Positions 1,154-20,435 of a DNA stretch of 20,435 bases are shown here, one piece after another (positions within the stretch are counted from its first letter, which is position 1; each line of letters opens with the position of its first letter). Source of the stretch: a virus; the IMG/VR virus record IMGVR_UViG_3300029286_003660, positions 1-20,435 of that record, one strand, 5' to 3'. Under the pieces are notes generated by a model. That model was not told where the DNA came from and did no database searches. It saw only the letters and a program-made list of their open reading frames with translations. The translations under genes were made by a program, and so were the position numbers.

Positions 1154-1300
1154 TTGTTCTTAAATAACCTGGGGGAGTTTGTGGCGTGGGAACGCAGTAC
1201 TTAGCGGTATTAGTAAGCAAAGAGCATCTTACACCTCCTTATGGCTTCTGCCATCTATGCTATTCAAAATAGCAGGAGATTATGCTTACTGCCAAGCTCT

Positions 1301-1317
1301 CCCAGATAAAATATGGG
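1301..1317 (+). repeat. 17-nt repeat copy 1 at RNA domain boundary
   Basis: cccagataaaatatggg matches 1413-1429 in 16 of 17 positions. It bridges the 3' strand of the domain 1 helix and the 5' strand of the domain 2 helix, and could itself pair as ccca/tggg. Confidence 0.85.
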
Positions 1318-1412
1318 CAAGGTTAACACCTAAACTCTCTAAGCGGTTATATCTCTAAGACAGCTGTTAATGAGATGAGCTGGAAGCGGGGGAAGGGCTG
1401 CGAAAGCAGTAG

Positions 1413-1429
1413 CCCAGCTAAAATATGGG
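1413..1429 (+). repeat. 17-nt repeat copy 2 at RNA domain boundary
   Basis: cccagctaaaatatggg, one mismatch from copy 1. It bridges the end of domain 2 and the first bases of the tRNA-like acceptor helix, which is the equivalent position one domain later. Confidence 0.85.
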
Positions 1430-1504
1430 GCTGTGGCACTCTTATAAAGTGCGATAGGTAAAGCAGGATAGCATCCTGAACTGGTTCAAATCCAGCCAGC
1501 CCCT
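1427..1504 (+). tRNA. tRNA-like domain, non-canonical (possible degenerate tRNA)
   Basis: A perfect 7-bp acceptor-like helix (ggggctg/cagcccc) and a T-arm of four pairs around TTCAAAT (1485-1491) are tRNA hallmarks. The length, 77 nt plus a T discriminator, is slightly long. The middle does not fold cleanly. One D-arm option (gcac/gtgc, 1436-1452) lacks the GG of a D-loop; another (tgc/gca, 1450-1465) has gataGGTAaa but leaves 16 unpaired bases before it. The best anticodon-like hairpin, 1464-1478, has the 7-base loop atagcat, which would place AGC (Ala) after T33, but the variable loop would then be almost absent. No CCA is encoded. It may be a decayed tRNA, a tRNA containing indels, or a tRNA mimic inside the larger RNA. 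Confidence 0.4.
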
Positions 1505-7001: not shown

Positions 7002-7832
7002 TCATTCTAACCAACCCCTTATTGCTGCGTTACAACCTACCGCCAAAGCTGTATCACCAACTACGCTAATCTTTAAATCTGCTGTGGCTGGTATCTTTGT
7101 GGGTACTTCTAATTCTCTATGGAATGACTGGTTGACCATACCTATTTCATTAAAAGGAAACCATAAGGTTGAAGGTAGCCCAGTCCCAGGGTCAACTTTT
7201 GCCCTTGTAATAAAGGTAACGTAGTTAAATTTACCGGAAGCTGTGGTGTTGCCTACTCCAGCACTAAAGGAGATAGAAGTAATGTAAAGTGATTTTCCGG
7301 CAGGGACAGTATAAACCATCTGCCTTGACTGGGTGAGACCTATACTGATTTGAGCATATACGGTAGCAGCAGTTGTTAACTTAGCAGTAATAGTCCCAGC
7401 CGCAACCCCATTTGCACCTGCGGCACTAATCCACATTTTATTAATCCTTAAGAATGAATTAGCAGTAACAACGGCAGTATCCGCAAGGGTTACTTCTTCG
7501 GTAATTTCTGCATAAGAAGAATTAAGACCACTTATTTTAATTTTTTGTGCACCACTCCCTCCGTCTTTGTCATTAGTCGTGTCAGAAGAAACTACATCTA
7601 ATTTAGTCGCAGAAGCGGGGAAAGCATAAACCGAATTACCCTCCCAGACATCCATTGCGGAGTTAGATACTATACAACGCCCGTATTTGGCAAAGGGAGT
7701 GTGTTCTGGTTCATTTCCCTCTGCAATATCAAATAAATAAGGCATACAAGACACTCTGGGTTTATTATCTATATGTCTTACTCCATATGGCTTAAGTTGT
7801 TCATCTATAAGTCTTACTGAAGGGTAACCCAT
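7002..7832 (-). CDS. Phage structural protein, beta-sandwich type (276 aa)
   Basis: The N-terminus (MGYPSVRLIDEQLKPYGVRH) and the segment KLDVVSSDTTNDKDGGSGAQ followed by KIKISGLNSSYAEITEEVTL and TANSFLRINKMWIS belong to a pattern common in virion proteins of tailed phages. It continues into a YTVPAGKSLYITSISFSAGVG and RAKVDPG...F repeat-like half and ends AAIRGWLE. The composition is low in Cys and rich in Ala/Thr/Val, as expected of an abundant virion component. It may be a tail, appendage or capsid-decoration protein; I cannot say which. TAATG overlap with the upstream gene. Confidence 0.7.
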   Translation of the reverse strand: MGYPSVRLIDEQLKPYGVRHIDNKPRVSCMPYLFDIAEGNEPEHTPFAKYGRCIVSNSAMDVWEGNSVYAFPASATKLDVVSSDTTNDKDGGSGAQKIKISGLNSSYAEITEEVTLADTAVVTANSFLRINKMWISAAGANGVAAGTITAKLTTAATVYAQISIGLTQSRQMVYTVPAGKSLYITSISFSAGVGNTTASGKFNYVTFITRAKVDPGTGLPSTLWFPFNEIGMVNQSFHRELEVPTKIPATADLKISVVGDTALAVGCNAAIRGWLE

Positions 7833-12712: not shown

Positions 12713-13381
12713 TTAGAATGTCTTAGTTAAAGTTTTATTTAACGCTCCTGTAGTTGCTACTGCTTTTAGAGAATAACTCCCTTGTGTCTTGATTGTGGCT
12801 TCGGAGTAGGATTGGAGAGAATAGGATTGTACATAAACCTTGAAATACCTATTCCAACCCCACCCACCAGTCCATCCACCTACGGTATACCAATATGCTC
12901 CATAATAACCATAAGCGTTAAGTTTGGAAGACAGTGTCCAGTAAACATTAGTTGCTTGGTCAGGACAGGTTATTACTAACCAGTAAAGAGTTGAGGCATT
13001 AAGCGAAAACGGAGTTGCGAATGTTCCCTTAATTACAGTATTCTCTGCCGGAGGAGTTACTACAATAGAAGCATTAGCATCAGCTAAAGTGCCTGAAGGA
13101 ACACCTGAATTATCAGTCTCTATTCTAAATGTCCAGTTACCAGAGGGAGTTCCACTTGTTGAACCTCCCCTCCTAACTTCAACGGCAGTAACAACCAAAG
13201 TACCTGATAACTGAAAAGATTGACCGTAGTGCATTTGGTTAGTAGAACCCTTACCAAACGCATCATCGTTATCATAAGTTGTCTGTTGTTGGTCAACAGA
13301 CTCTCCAACAGACGCATTAGTTACATACGCCGCCTGTGCATTGGCGTCAGAGGAGTATTCCATAAAATCAATTTCGCTCAC
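12713..13381 (-). CDS. Tail fibre / appendage protein, N-terminal portion (222 aa)
   Basis: The start at GTG 13381 has GGAGG 4 nt upstream. A better AAAGGA-spaced ATG at 13406 opens MANYNWRS in another frame and would join this ORF by one base shift as MANYNWRSVSEIDFMEY. Residues 52-188 form a jelly-roll-like beta domain (YGQSFQLSGTLVVTAVEVRR, NWTFRIETDNSGVPSGTL, FSLNASTLYWLVITCPDQ) of the kind used in surface binding, with a Trp/Tyr/Gly-rich patch at about 150-180. The end (EATIKTQGSYSLKAVATTGA) begins another beta-sandwich that continues in the next ORF after a frame break. Confidence 0.65.
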   Translation of the reverse strand: MSEIDFMEYSSDANAQAAYVTNASVGESVDQQQTTYDNDDAFGKGSTNQMHYGQSFQLSGTLVVTAVEVRRGGSTSGTPSGNWTFRIETDNSGVPSGTLADANASIVVTPPAENTVIKGTFATPFSLNASTLYWLVITCPDQATNVYWTLSSKLNAYGYYGAYWYTVGGWTGGWGWNRYFKVYVQSYSLQSYSEATIKTQGSYSLKAVATTGALNKTLTKTF

Positions 13382-13415
13382 GTGACCTCCAATTGTAGTT
13401 TGCCATAGTTATCCT

Positions 13416-13844
13416 TTAAGAAAAACTAATAATTCCGTCTCCGTCCCAAATTATGGTAAACGTCCCAGAACTTACTGCCTTTGCCCCGCCAAAATCTATA
13501 GAGCAAATTAAGTTATCCGCAGAAGCGTCTACAGTTGTATCGTATAAAAGTGCATAGTAAGCTGTAAAAGTAGCAGTAGTCCAAGCAGTATCAGCAGCAT
13601 CAAATTTAATTGTAGCTGAAGAGCCGTCTACAGGAGTAAGCGTTTGTGTCCCTAATGTCGCCCCACCCTGTGTGTAACCAGTTGCTGTAGCTAATTCGTT
13701 AGTCGTAGAATAATTCCTTGAAGTTGCTGACAGATTGTAACTATTGTCATAAAGTGCTACCTTGATTGTGTCTCCACCACTCGCCAAGTTTACTTTCTTG
13801 GTGAGGACATTAGACTTGAAAATGTTAGAAACAAAACTCGCCAT
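13416..13844 (-). CDS. Phage tail/appendage beta-rich protein (142 aa)
   Basis: AAAGGAATAGTT precedes ATG 13844. The sequence starts MASFVSNIFKSNVLTKKVNL and follows a pattern seen in phage virion proteins: GGDTIKVALYDNSYNLSA, a TTNELATATGYTQGGATL-like loop, TIKFDAADTAWTTATFTAYY, ALLYDTT, then CSIDFGGAKAVSSGTFTIIW and a C-terminal DGDGIISFS. It appears complete, all beta, low in charge. The likely location is the tail fibre or baseplate region; the precise role is unknown. Confidence 0.7.
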   Translation of the reverse strand: MASFVSNIFKSNVLTKKVNLASGGDTIKVALYDNSYNLSATSRNYSTTNELATATGYTQGGATLGTQTLTPVDGSSATIKFDAADTAWTTATFTAYYALLYDTTVDASADNLICSIDFGGAKAVSSGTFTIIWDGDGIISFS

Positions 13845-15264: not shown

Positions 15265-16866
15265 TTATACCTCATCCTGGTAGGTTAAAGCATAGGTAAT
15301 TATAGAACGTTCTAAGACTGTTATATCGTCTGAACCATTAACAGCATTGTGTTGTATTTTTAGTCGTATTTGATTCCATTCACCCAAATTATCTAAATGG
15401 AATTCTTCAGTTATAACATTAGCACTCGCTAAGTCAAATGGAAGATTAACGGGTAAGGTTGGAGAATTACCTTGTAATGCTATTGAACCTAACGTTTCAT
15501 AAGCTCCATCATCTATTGAAGCAGATATAGTTAAAGTATAATCACCTGAAGATAATGCTTTAATCCTTACTATTCCTCCGGATTTCTTAACAAGAGGTTG
15601 ACCACAATCCTCTTTGCGACCCTCCTCTTGGTAGTTTATTGCTGTGCCATCAGTAATTGTACTTCCCTCATCCGTATATCCATACCAAGCCCTATAAACC
15701 TTTCCGTCTGCGTGTTGTCCGTAGTAAAGTCTTTCTTCTCCACCGACTTTATACTTTACCCAGTTACGTGGTTCCCAACCAGTTATAATCATAAATGATT
15801 TAGTAGCAGGATAATAAACCCAGGTATCAAAGGTTGACGCTCCAGTTGGAACACCTATGAAAATCTTATTATCAAAGTATTCCATAGTTAGACGGTCAAT
15901 ATAAGCCCAATTTATTGAATCAAATTCTGTTTTAAGATTATAAGATAATGGATAATCAGTTCCAGCCTGGAGTTTATCCTGGACAGTTCTCATTAACGCC
16001 CTAAATCCGTCTTGGGCGAAATAATAAATATCATCTCCGGCATTTACCCAACCCTTCTTGCTTACTACCCCACGATTAGTTACTAATGGTTCAGGTTTAT
16101 CTGTTACTGCTGGTGTAGCACTTGGGGCAAGACCCCAAATAGCGTCTTTACCCATAACAATCATTCCTGTATCACGAGTGGGTACTATACCCCTCTCTTG
16201 ACCAACAGGAACACGATACCAATTAGTTACATTATCAAAAGCAGTAGAATAATCACTATCGTAAGCATCAGAGAAAAACAACTGGTCGTTCTTTAATATC
16301 CATATTCTATTACCATACCAAGACATTACTGTGGAAATGGGAGGAGAAGCAGAAGCTCCCGTAGCTGAACCCAAGTCTTGGATAGCCCAAACATCAGAAC
16401 TATTCTTGTGAAGTCTTTTGATTGTATCAGTTCCATTGGAAACTAAAATAATGTCGTCAGGAACAAGATCACTTTCCTTTGCTGATAATATGTTAACATC
16501 GGTTTGTCCTGTGGTAAAAGCACTCGCTGTGGCGGAAAGAAAACTTCCTGAACCTAACCACTCCCATAGGTTTATATCATCATAGACAACTAATGAATCA
16601 GTATATCCTTGCCTGTCATAACTATGTAAATCAGCAAATGTAGTAGAACCTAAGTCATTGCCTATTAACACTGAACCAGGACGCTTAGTAGACTGTCCAG
16701 CAGTTCCTATGTCGGCATTATAAAGTACGGTAACCTGATTTTCGGCTATCAAACTCCCGTGCTGTTTAGAGTTTACACCTCCAGAGATGTCCCTGCGAAC
16801 AACAAATATTTGTGCGTCGTCAGGAGATTTAACTGAAGATAATAATCTTATGTCTTTAATACTCAT
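15265..16866 (-). CDS. Tail nozzle / stabilisation protein (P22 gp10 / T7 gp12-like), 533 aa
   Basis: The layout is typical of podoviral beta-propeller tail proteins. The N-terminus carries DISGGVNSKQHGSLIAENQV, then a run of blades such as FADLHSYDRQGYTDSLVVYD, STVMSWYGNRIWILKNDQLF with FSD, and TDKPEPLVTNRGVVSKKGWV with YYFAQDGFRAL, where the RGVVSKKG segment is characteristic. The C-terminus is a beta domain (RIKALSSGDYTLTISASIDD). It would cap the tail below the adaptor. It begins one base inside the adaptor's stop (TAATG). Length and gene order fit; exact family membership is inferred. Confidence 0.75.
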   Translation of the reverse strand: MSIKDIRLLSSVKSPDDAQIFVVRRDISGGVNSKQHGSLIAENQVTVLYNADIGTAGQSTKRPGSVLIGNDLGSTTFADLHSYDRQGYTDSLVVYDDINLWEWLGSGSFLSATASAFTTGQTDVNILSAKESDLVPDDIILVSNGTDTIKRLHKNSSDVWAIQDLGSATGASASPPISTVMSWYGNRIWILKNDQLFFSDAYDSDYSTAFDNVTNWYRVPVGQERGIVPTRDTGMIVMGKDAIWGLAPSATPAVTDKPEPLVTNRGVVSKKGWVNAGDDIYYFAQDGFRALMRTVQDKLQAGTDYPLSYNLKTEFDSINWAYIDRLTMEYFDNKIFIGVPTGASTFDTWVYYPATKSFMIITGWEPRNWVKYKVGGEERLYYGQHADGKVYRAWYGYTDEGSTITDGTAINYQEEGRKEDCGQPLVKKSGGIVRIKALSSGDYTLTISASIDDGAYETLGSIALQGNSPTLPVNLPFDLASANVITEEFHLDNLGEWNQIRLKIQHNAVNGSDDITVLERSIITYALTYQDEV

Positions 16867-17789
16867 TAAATTATGCCCTCATCACGACTTAAAGCCTCCG
16901 GCTGGAATTGATGGACTATTCCAGGCTGAGCGACTTCTCTGTGTATTCTATCGGATTTCATTATTTGATATTGAGTTTCGCAGACATTTGCCTTAGAACC
17001 CTGTCTTTTATATCTCCAGGCATCAGACTGTGCACCCATCTCTATAATATCTTCTATATCTTCAATTACTGGATAATCATAGGTTTGTGATAAAGGGGTT
17101 ATCTTGCGTTTAGTTCTTAGCTTTATAGTTACCGCACCGCTGGGAACTGGATAAAGATTAAGTATTTTATATCTGCTAACAAGAGTTTCAGGAGACATAA
17201 CCGCCCTAACCGTACTTCCATCATTGTCATATAAGGTAATCTTTCCAGCCGTTGATGTAGATTTGGAAAATCCAAGAACTTGGGTATATGTATTCGAAGC
17301 TGTTACTGCTGTAGTTCCATTACAGGTTAAACTCTCATATACTTCTCCAGCGGTAGAACTTAATCCCCTTAATAGAATAGTCTGCGTAGTATCACTAGCT
17401 GAAGAACTTTTTATAATTAATTTCTGTCCAGTTTCCGGCTGTGAAGCAGCTACATCGCTTACTAAAAAGCAAGTATCTGGTGAACCCGTGTCTGTTAAAG
17501 CATCTCCATAGTTCTGAAGAAAGTCTTGTTCGGTTACTATATTTATAGGACAATCATTAGTTATATCCACGGCATAGATAAGTCTTTCTGTATTCTCATC
17601 AAACGCATAGGCAGAAGTATTAGCTGTGGTAGTTAAACTCTGGTTATGATAAAGTTGTTCCCAATCATAACTATTAATTATATCTCTATATCTATTATTT
17701 ACCCAGAGTCCGACTATGGTTGAAAAGGCAGAAGAAGTGTCCTGCACATATGAACCAACATTTGCTTTTATTACTGAAAAACTTTTCAT
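16866..17789 (-). CDS. Head-tail adaptor (gp11/gp4-type), 307 aa
   Basis: AGGAG precedes ATG 17789. The N-terminal helix pair ending VNNRYRDIINSYDWEQLYH and the C-terminal LRTKRKITPLSQTYDYPVIE with a helix EMGAQSDAWRYKRQG are the ring-forming elements of podoviral adaptors. Between them lies an inserted beta domain, about residues 110-205 (QKLIIKSSSASDTTQTILLR, ITLYDNDGSTVRAVM). The protein should join portal to nozzle. Being next to the nozzle gene, which it overlaps by one base, supports this. The insertion makes it longer than the T7 gp11 form. Confidence 0.75.
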   Translation of the reverse strand: MKSFSVIKANVGSYVQDTSSAFSTIVGLWVNNRYRDIINSYDWEQLYHNQSLTTTANTSAYAFDENTERLIYAVDITNDCPINIVTEQDFLQNYGDALTDTGSPDTCFLVSDVAASQPETGQKLIIKSSSASDTTQTILLRGLSSTAGEVYESLTCNGTTAVTASNTYTQVLGFSKSTSTAGKITLYDNDGSTVRAVMSPETLVSRYKILNLYPVPSGAVTIKLRTKRKITPLSQTYDYPVIEDIEDIIEMGAQSDAWRYKRQGSKANVCETQYQIMKSDRIHREVAQPGIVHQFQPEALSRDEGII

Positions 17790-17797
17790 AAAAACTC

Positions 17798-18244
17798 CTA
17801 TTGTATGTGAAACTGAAAATTACATTTAGGACACTGGATAACTTGATAGTGGTGATTATGAGAAATCAACATCAAATTTTCAGGTCTATTATCGTCTTTA
17901 ATACCATTTTTATGGTGGACATCTTCTTCTTTGGTTAAGTATCTTCCAATAATTTTTTCCATTACCAATCTATGCTCTAACACATAGCCCCCACCACCCT
18001 TACCATTTCTTTTGGCAAATGGATGCTTAGGGCAATATGTAAAAATATATCCATCTCTTTTAGTAGTATATTTTCCACCTTTCCAGTGGGGACTATCTTC
18101 TCCCTTTGGGAATACTCTACCTTTTGAAGCATTACCTATATTTATTTTTACCTGTTCAAGTAAGACTGGATTTTTCTTTGTTTTTTCCCACCATTCTTTT
18201 CTTATTTGGGACATCTTTTGTTTATATTCTTCCGTATGTTTCAT
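17798..18244 (-). CDS. HNH homing-type endonuclease (148 aa)
   Basis: ATG 18244 is used because of its ATGA overlap with the sugar-enzyme gene; an in-frame ATG 12 bases earlier is less likely. The N-terminus ([19 protein letters not shown]) resembles a NUMOD3-type DNA-recognition element. The HNH_3 core is at residues 90-125: [37 protein letters not shown] with H110-H111, N113 and N123. A C138-x2-C141 zinc knuckle follows. The gene sits between two unrelated operon genes, as expected of a mobile homing endonuclease. Confidence 0.85.
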
Positions 18245-19251
18245 AAACCTAACCATTCCTTATTTTCCATATACCAATTTACAGTTCTCATTAAAGATAA
18301 ATCAAAGCCTATCGGGTGTATCCATCCTAACTCACCCAACTTTTCTCCATTTAAACCATAATGTAAATCGTGCCCCTTCCTCAAACTGTGTGCATCTACT
18401 AATTTATATTTCAATGGTTCATTTAATATTTCTGAAACTTTCTGAGCCAATTCTAAATTACTGATTCTTCTTTCCCCAACTATATTAAATCTTTCTGGTT
18501 TACCATAATCAGGGTAAAATTTCACCATACAGTTTTTTAGTAAAAACAATATTGCGTCTGCGTGGTTACGTGCGTGTATCCAGTATCTTGAACCAGCCTT
18601 AGTCAGTTCTTGATTTGCGTGTATATCTAAAACCTCACCACTTAAAATCTTCTTTATAACCATTGGTAAAAACTTTTCAGGGTCTTGCATTTCTGCAAAA
18701 TTATTCATAGTATTGGTTAGAATAACTGGAACCCCATAAGTTCTCCAATATGAAATAGCTATTGCTTCCTGACTTGCCTTTGAAGCTGAATAGGGATTTG
18801 ATGGTAATATAGTATCCCATTCTCTGTGTGCCGTAAATTCATCTGTTGCACCATACGATTCATCAGTCCCTATCTGAATAAACTTCTCTGGTTTTATCTC
18901 CCTTGCCAGTTCAAGCATATTAAGGACTACTGCCACATTATTTTTAACAAAATCTACTGGGTCTGTTATAGACCTTTCTACGTGAGATTCAGACGCAAGA
19001 TTAACGATATAATCCACCTTACCAATTTTATGTTTCAATATACTTGAAAAAGGTGCAGTTAAATCGTGTGTTAATATCTTTACCCTTGATTTATTATCTT
19101 GATAATGTTTATTCTGAGTTATTCTTTCCGAAATACCCTTGTGATTCCAACTATCTGTTCCAATTATTTCCCAATCGGTATTTAATAAAAAGTGAGATAA
19201 AAAATGGCTCCCAATAAAACCACCAATACCACTCAAGAATATTTTTTTCAT
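18241..19251 (-). CDS. NAD-dependent sugar-nucleotide dehydratase/epimerase (RmlB-like), 336 aa
   Basis: GGAG precedes ATG 19251. The extended SDR fold is complete: nucleotide loop G8-x2-G11-x2-G14, then T129-D130-E131 (IGTDESYG) and Y154-x3-K158 (NPYSASKAS). The acid pair after Thr is the mark of 4,6-dehydratases such as RmlB, rather than of plain epimerases. [19 protein letters not shown] matches the substrate-facing region. It likely converts an NDP-hexose to a 4-keto-6-deoxy form. With the coupled aminotransferase it could make an amino-sugar for a virion, host surface or DNA modification. Confidence 0.85.
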
Positions 19252-20435
19252 TTTTTCTCCGTGACTATGGTTCTGAACACCTCTGCTGCGGGTTTACCTT
19301 TCAATGCTTTAATTGGATTTTTCCAATTATCCTTGCAAACCTTTAGTGCCTGCTTAATCACATCAAGAGTATAGAGAATTTCTCTTTCTCTGTGAGAAAA
19401 AGAAATGAAGTTAGCCCACCCAAAGAACACTCCCCTTTGAATACATTCTTGCCAAAATAACGACTTATGCACTCCACTTGGAAAATCAAAGAACGTTCTA
19501 CAGGGATAACCCTTACACTCTGTTTCTAAATCTAACGATTTGGCTATCTCGTTATATCCATCTTTGAGATATTGTCCGTGATACCAAATATCCTCTATAA
19601 CGTGTTCATCTTCTAAAATCTTGATAGTTTCTAAAGCCCCCACGATACCAAGTAAATCACCACCGAAAGTAGAACTAACAAAACAATCACCCTCTAACTC
19701 CTTCATATACTTTTTCTTACCGCAAACTACGGAAATAGGTATTCCGTTAGCCATATCTTTTCCAAATGTGGCTAAGTCGGGAGTTACCTTAAAGTATTTT
19801 TGAGCCGAATAACCAGTTGTTCTAAACCCAGTAACAACTTCATCAAATATTAATAATGCCCCATTTTTATGGGCAAGTTTTTTAACTTCACCTAAAAAGT
19901 TATCTCTTGGTTCTTCAAAGATACACGGTTCCATAATCACAGCCGCTAAGTTATATTTATCGGTAATATATTTTAGTGACTGTAGATTATTAAATTCAAA
20001 TTTATGGACTAAGTGTTCATAACACTTGGGTATTCCTTTATTTTTCGGGGTAGATACTGTAAACCAATCGTGCCAGCCGTGATAACCACAGATTGCTATG
20101 TGTTCTCTTCCCGTATAAGAACGGGCTATCTTTATAGCAGCGGAATCAGCCTCTGAACCTGTTTTCAAGAACCTTGACATTTCCGCACAAGGTATTAACT
20201 CTTTTATCTTTTCCGCCAACTTTGTTTCTAATATTGATGTACAGATAAAAAGGTTTCCTCTACTTAATCTATCTGTTACCGCTTCAACCACTGGATGATA
20301 TGCGTGTCCTAAAAGTATTGCTCCTAGACCTAAGGGATAATCTATAAATGTATTATTTTCATTATCTCCCACATAACATCCGTGTCCGTGTTCTAAGTAA
20401 ATTGGGTAAACTCCTTCTACAAACTTGTTTGGCAT
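19248..20435 (-). CDS. Class III PLP aminotransferase (glutamate-1-semialdehyde aminomutase-like), possibly 5' partial
   Basis: 395 residues are visible and the first codon, ATG, is exactly at the window edge. Family members usually have more N-terminal sequence before PNKFVEGVYPIYLEHGHG, so the gene may continue outside. Motifs are clear: TGSEADSAAIKIAR (93-104, phosphate cup), GYHGWHDW (117-124), E169-P170, D198-EVVTGFR, and the PLP lysine K226 in TFGKDMANG. HemL makes 5-aminolevulinate, but phage copies next to sugar enzymes more likely aminate a sugar or related keto-compound (inference). It overlaps the dehydratase gene by 4 nt, so the two form one operon. Confidence 0.85.
   Translation of the reverse strand: MPNKFVEGVYPIYLEHGHGCYVGDNENNTFIDYPLGLGAILLGHAYHPVVEAVTDRLSRGNLFICTSILETKLAEKIKELIPCAEMSRFLKTGSEADSAAIKIARSYTGREHIAICGYHGWHDWFTVSTPKNKGIPKCYEHLVHKFEFNNLQSLKYITDKYNLAAVIMEPCIFEEPRDNFLGEVKKLAHKNGALLIFDEVVTGFRTTGYSAQKYFKVTPDLATFGKDMANGIPISVVCGKKKYMKELEGDCFVSSTFGGDLLGIVGALETIKILEDEHVIEDIWYHGQYLKDGYNEIAKSLDLETECKGYPCRTFFDFPSGVHKSLFWQECIQRGVFFGWANFISFSHREREILYTLDVIKQALKVCKDNWKNPIKALKGKPAAEVFRTIVTEKK

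Follow-up and report, generated by a model that had tools for sequence, protein, structure and literature searches.

A phage intergenic gap that probably encodes a structured RNA of three domains, the last of them tRNA-like

What does a phage encode in a 415-nt gap without recognizable genes, set within a series of very short genes on the + strand? The window analyzed here, i.e. the whole stretch of 20,435 nt, is an entire IMG/VR virus record; it is a fragment of a P22-like phage and encodes a relative of the P22-type "phage stabilization protein" from spring phages. The gap is flanked by a 44-aa ORF (975–1109) upstream and a 47-aa ORF (1525–1668) downstream, and genes for a NinG-type nuclease and a YdcK-type solenoid protein are situated upstream of the element described below. 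A PHROG search gave no match for the ORFs of the gap, including the sole ORF within the element (1179–1358, TTG start, 59 aa), nor for an antisense ORF, in line with the lack of coding signal noted in the preliminary description. From its predicted structure, we propose that a 336-nt stretch of this gap probably makes a folded non-coding RNA, with a tRNA-like top half formed by its last 78 nt.

1110–1524, + strand: non-coding gap of 415 nt, from the sequence and the ORF list
1169–1504, + strand: the element, 336 nt, inside the 415-nt gap

The minimum-energy fold of positions 1160–1506 consists of three consecutive domains, as had been drawn in the preliminary description, and most of its helices have a pairing probability of at least 0.7. 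The three closing helices proposed at that time (13, 5 and 7 bp) were all recovered at the same positions, the middle one being weak, as were both GNRA-capped hairpins (1184–1195 and 1398–1409). To these, the present analysis adds a linker repeat, a second T-loop-like hairpin (1258–1274) and a hairpin resembling an anticodon arm (1436–1452). The features of domain 1 are:

1169–1305, + strand: domain 1, closed in the fold by a 13-bp helix (1169–1181/1293–1305)
1184–1195, + strand: GNRA hairpin GCGU-GGGA-ACGC of domain 1, from the predicted fold
1258–1274, + strand: T-loop-like hairpin UGCUA-UUCAAAA-UAGCA of domain 1, from the sequence

The closing helix of domain 1, with 2 G-U among its 13 bp, has a pairing probability of 0.97. 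The hairpin at 1258–1274 lies directly against the 3′ strand of the helix that closes the three-way junction of this domain (1235–1239/1274–1278), a stacking plan also found in the acceptor and T arm of domain 3. Since the energy model offers here a longer stem of 6 bp with a 3-nt loop, the T-loop of domain 1 should be taken as a possibility only. The linker repeat and domain 2 follow:

1301–1317, + strand: linker repeat, copy 1, CCCAGATAAAATATGGG, from a repeat search
1314–1416, + strand: domain 2, closed by the weak 5-bp helix UGGGC/GCCCA (1314–1318/1412–1416)
1398–1409, + strand: GNRA hairpin CUGC-GAAA-GCAG of domain 2, from the predicted fold
1413–1429, + strand: linker repeat, copy 2, CCCAGCTAAAATATGGG, from the repeat search

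The helix closing domain 2 has a pairing probability of 0.45 and competes with a local 7-bp hairpin (1395–1401/1409–1415) that wins once the flanks are folded too. The linker, CCCAG[A/C]UAAAAUAUGGG, stands before domain 2 and again before domain 3, and its GGG is in both cases the start of the closing helix of the domain that comes next. Domain 3 contains the following features:

1427–1504, + strand: domain 3, tRNA-like, 78 nt, from the Infernal tRNA match and the fold
1436–1452, + strand: anticodon-arm-like hairpin GCACU-CUUAUAA-AGUGC (pairing probability 0.99), whose loop would give the anticodon UAU
1464–1478, + strand: hairpin CAGGA-UAGCA-UCCUG, positioned where a variable arm would be, or read by Infernal as a short anticodon arm
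1481–1495, + strand: T arm CUGG-UUCAAAU-CCAG, from the Infernal match and the fold

This domain reads 5′-GGGGCUG-UG-GCACU-CUUAUAA-AGUGC-GAUAGGUAAAG-CAGGA-UAGCA-UCCUG-AA-CUGG-UUCAAAU-CCAG-C-CAGCCCC-U-3′. Its closing helix (1427–1433/1497–1503; 7 bp, pairing probability 0.65–0.75) has the place of an acceptor helix, and in the predicted structure it is followed by the 4-bp T stem, with an A-C mismatch between both; an AU-rich linker ending in U lies 5′ of it. The T-loop claimed in the preliminary description for the 3′ domain is present, and from the start of the T arm to position 1503 there is identity at 22 of 23 nt with a real tRNA-Met gene at its 3′ end. Domain 3 also shares with tRNAs (RF00005) a hairpin that corresponds in size and loop to an anticodon arm (C32 U33 UAU A37 A38; 7 nt); in contrast, the D arm with its conserved GG is missing, as only UG separates the acceptor from the anticodon-like arm, a D-loop-like AGGUAA occurs out of place, 3′ of the latter arm, and the CCA is not encoded. 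With the whole Rfam tRNA model, Infernal scored domain 3 at 22.4 bits, under the gathering cut-off of 29 (E 0.036 over all 4227 families, ca. 1e-5 for the tRNA family singly). In the alignment of Infernal the first hairpin is taken as a D arm, with a loop lacking GG, and almost no variable loop is left; under both readings, the predicted structure retains the top half of a tRNA, whereas the bottom half is rearranged. The preliminary description had proposed searches with Rfam and ARAGORN: the former gave this sub-threshold tRNA match and no family at gathering score, and the latter called no tRNA, either in domain 3 or elsewhere in the 20,435 nt of this record, which may be a fragment. Domain 3 was therefore not assigned to the tRNA family, on account of its Rfam score, its missing D arm and the silence of ARAGORN.

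The same data bear on the idea that domain 3 represents a tRNA gene which is aberrant or in decay, lacks its D arm and is perhaps for isoleucine (UAU), in which case domains 1 and 2 would be a separate structured RNA or unrelated. That the acceptor, the T arm and the anticodon-like arm are intact would fit such a gene, and so would the identity to tRNA-Met, the similar AU-rich spacers found immediately 5′ of tRNA genes in many phages and the occurrence of the CUUAUAA loop in some tRNAs from other viral contigs. A perfect 7-bp acceptor helix with a T arm is, however, unexpected in a decayed gene, and the lack of a D arm, of any further tRNA in the record and of a call by either program at its threshold also argues against it; we consider this explanation unlikely, the second among the rivals. 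The loop CUUAUAA (anticodon UAU, Ile) was seen in tRNA-like genes of viral contigs L058, L070, L100, L116, L133 and L117, and the gene from L117 has a long variable arm, which is unusual in an isoleucine tRNA. A phage attachment site, carrying a copy of the 3′ end of a host tRNA, was also considered and rejected: the 19-nt tRNA end was absent from 192 genomes of one phylum, no integrase was recognized among the proteins searched, and such a site would leave the matching 5′ strand of the acceptor unexplained.

An AT-rich phage spacer might offer helices as any such sequence would, and the folding energy gives this view some room. The folding z of the element was −3.48 in one run and −3.0 in another, ranking sixth among the 118 segments of the window (5/118 equal or better); its total folding energy is thus unexceptional, and only moderately beyond chance. 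Two other segments on the + strand, antisense to structural genes (16657–17003 and 13187–13533), had z values of −3.7 and −3.5, equal to or beyond that of the element, so that z alone is a poor guide. The predicted folding energy was better for the + strand (−118.6) than for the − strand (−104.4). The specific anatomy is more telling than the bulk energy and is clearly beyond chance, with rates that are optimistic because the tests were partly picked after the sequence was seen: an acceptor-like 7-bp helix abutting a T arm with a UUCRA loop appeared in 6 of 20,000 dinucleotide shuffles and two T-loop hairpins in none of 20,000; the 17-nt linker repeat was found in 0/300 shuffles and a helix matching the 13-bp one in strength in 4/300. 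These rarities and the single-family tRNA match weigh against a chance origin, which the modest z values and the lack of homologues would suit, and which we regard as very improbable.

The collection of homologues by blastn, also proposed in the preliminary description, yielded none. Searches of a phage collection (a single 25-nt chance match, E 0.4) and of a plasmid collection retrieved no homologue of the element, and neither did blastn and a covariance model of domain 1 in 764 genomes (384 and 380) from two candidate host phyla, where blastn gave only two matches, one of 43 nt due to chance and one that is the terminal 3′ part of a true tRNA-Met. MW202573 and MW202524, distant relatives of the phage, had no match to the element. 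Pattern scans of IMG/VR, which took exact words only and excluded near copies of the window, so that an absence of relatives in them is weak evidence, gave 38 matches for the doubled linker (mostly coding-like, none aligning to the element), at least 119 for linker plus T-loop (mostly ordinary tRNA genes), 10 for the single linker (flanks unrelated), 7 for the combination of anticodon loop, D-loop and T-loop (unrelated), 2 for a piece of domain 2 (flanks unrelated) and 0 for the hairpins of domain 1. Protein-guided scans of IMG/VR, with the protein encoded at 7002–7832 and with NinG, found no relatives, and a D-arm-less pattern had 0 matches in bacterial and archaeal genome contigs. No collection searched thus supplied a homologue with which the base pairs could be compared.

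The element lies close to the next gene, and this raises its main rival explanation, that of a cis-acting 5′ leader controlling translation or transcription of the 47-aa gene, with domain 3 as an operator or sensor:

1513–1668, + strand: ribosome binding site AAGGAGTG and 47-aa basic ORF, from the sequence; the target under the leader reading

Leaders that mimic tRNAs act as operators or sensors. Here, the ribosome binding site, a good one, starts 9 nt and the ATG 21 nt past the end of domain 3, with no terminator-like site in between. With its small size and strongly basic character (pI 11.1), the encoded protein could bind the RNA. On the other hand, genes are tightly packed across the region, which means that nearness to the 47-aa gene says little; no leader or riboswitch family of Rfam matched, and no clear alternative fold hiding the ribosome binding site was seen. 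By analogy with such leaders, control of the 47-aa gene by the element can be envisaged, and we consider it unlikely on balance. The 47-aa protein itself, without a match in PHROG, could be an RNA-binding partner or merely the product of the next small gene.

The interpretation that we favor, tentatively and at something short of even confidence, is that of a structured non-coding RNA of ca. 336 nt cut from an early-region transcript, with the tRNA-like 3′ domain as a signal for processing and stability. It is supported by the 415-nt non-coding gap, the three domains with mostly well-determined helices, the shuffle rarities, the tRNA match and the better folding of the + strand. Against it we count the lack of homologues, the ordinary bulk energy, and the lack of any sigma-70 promoter-like site on the + strand between 900 and 1900 and of a terminator-like site directly after 1504; the CCA that is not encoded and the discriminator U also speak against it, and the closeness to the next ribosome binding site suits a leader equally.

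If this interpretation holds, a stable RNA of ca. 336 nt would be excised from the transcript of the early region. Domain 3 appears to keep what processing enzymes measure, namely an acceptor helix of 7 bp with the T stem abutting it, and a T-loop; a tRNA top half kept 3′ of an AU-rich linker whose last base is U would be a plausible substrate for RNase P. Host RNase P would then cut the linker before GGGGCUG, between 1426 and 1427, and another nuclease may cut the same linker ahead of domain 2. Domains 1 and 2 would be released as the working, trans-acting part, and the tRNA-like domain would set the 3′ end and guard it. Known non-tRNA substrates of RNase P consist of a tRNA-like top half joined to another RNA, and some are phage-encoded (PMC11143913). 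The features of such substrates, i.e. the stack of acceptor and T stem, the T-loop and a single-stranded 5′ leader, are found in the predicted structure of the element, from which we infer its processing by RNase P. M3 RNA, the C4 antisense RNA of phages and the tRNA-like 3′ ends of plant RNA viruses are similar to it in having a tRNA-like top half.

The early-type setting, the multi-domain RNA and the tRNA-like 3′ end described previously are supported by the structure statistics and the sub-threshold tRNA match; the likeness then suggested to GOLLD and ROOL did not stand. Both kinds of RNA form homo-oligomers (nanocages). The ROOL RNA that was studied has 659 nt, many GOLLD RNAs exceed 800 nt, and both are frequently found near tRNA islands of phages or prophages (PMC12286853). 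As a multi-domain non-coding RNA of a phage with a tRNA connection, the element is comparable to them; unlike them, it is half their size or smaller, in a gap of just 415 nt as opposed to ca. 600 to >800, and its link to tRNA is a mimic at its own 3′ end, with no tRNA island in the record. Rfam gave no match to GOLLD or ROOL even at relaxed E (up to 5 and 10), and this, the size and the lack of a tRNA gene in the 20-kb record, possibly a fragment, speak against membership, which we reject. A tmRNA also carries a tRNA mimic attached to a larger structured RNA; in the element, however, the 5′ strand of the acceptor is local, so that the 5′ terminus of the complete RNA takes no part in closing the mimic, and there was neither a match to the Rfam model nor a call by ARAGORN. 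A T-box was likewise ruled out with Rfam. As modeled, the element would be a structured phage RNA that carries a tRNA mimic, and Rfam contains nothing similar.

It might also be the first of a new class of multi-domain phage RNAs, defined by three domains, a repeated linker, T-loop modules in two of the domains and a D-arm-less 3′ mimic with a displaced AGGUAA, with a role in processing or in engaging a tRNA-handling enzyme of the host; this further proposal we hold as doubtful. If real, the element would be a compact addition to the few known large phage RNAs of open function, with a testable handle in its tRNA top half, for which recognition by RNase P or by the CCA-adding enzyme would be expected. 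As it is known from one sequence only, it counts as a good candidate and not as a discovery.

Two further observations concern other parts of the record. The gene for the YdcK-type beta-solenoid (406–978, + strand) contains near-identical tandem DNA units of 18 and 36 nt at ca. 540–820. At the opposite end of the window (18,241–20,435, − strand) this phage carries a sugar-epimerase-like gene and a class III aminotransferase-like gene; the closest relative of the aminotransferase is one from an Omnitrophota groundwater genome, with 47 % identity, a likeness that may hint at the habitat or the host and at nothing beyond.
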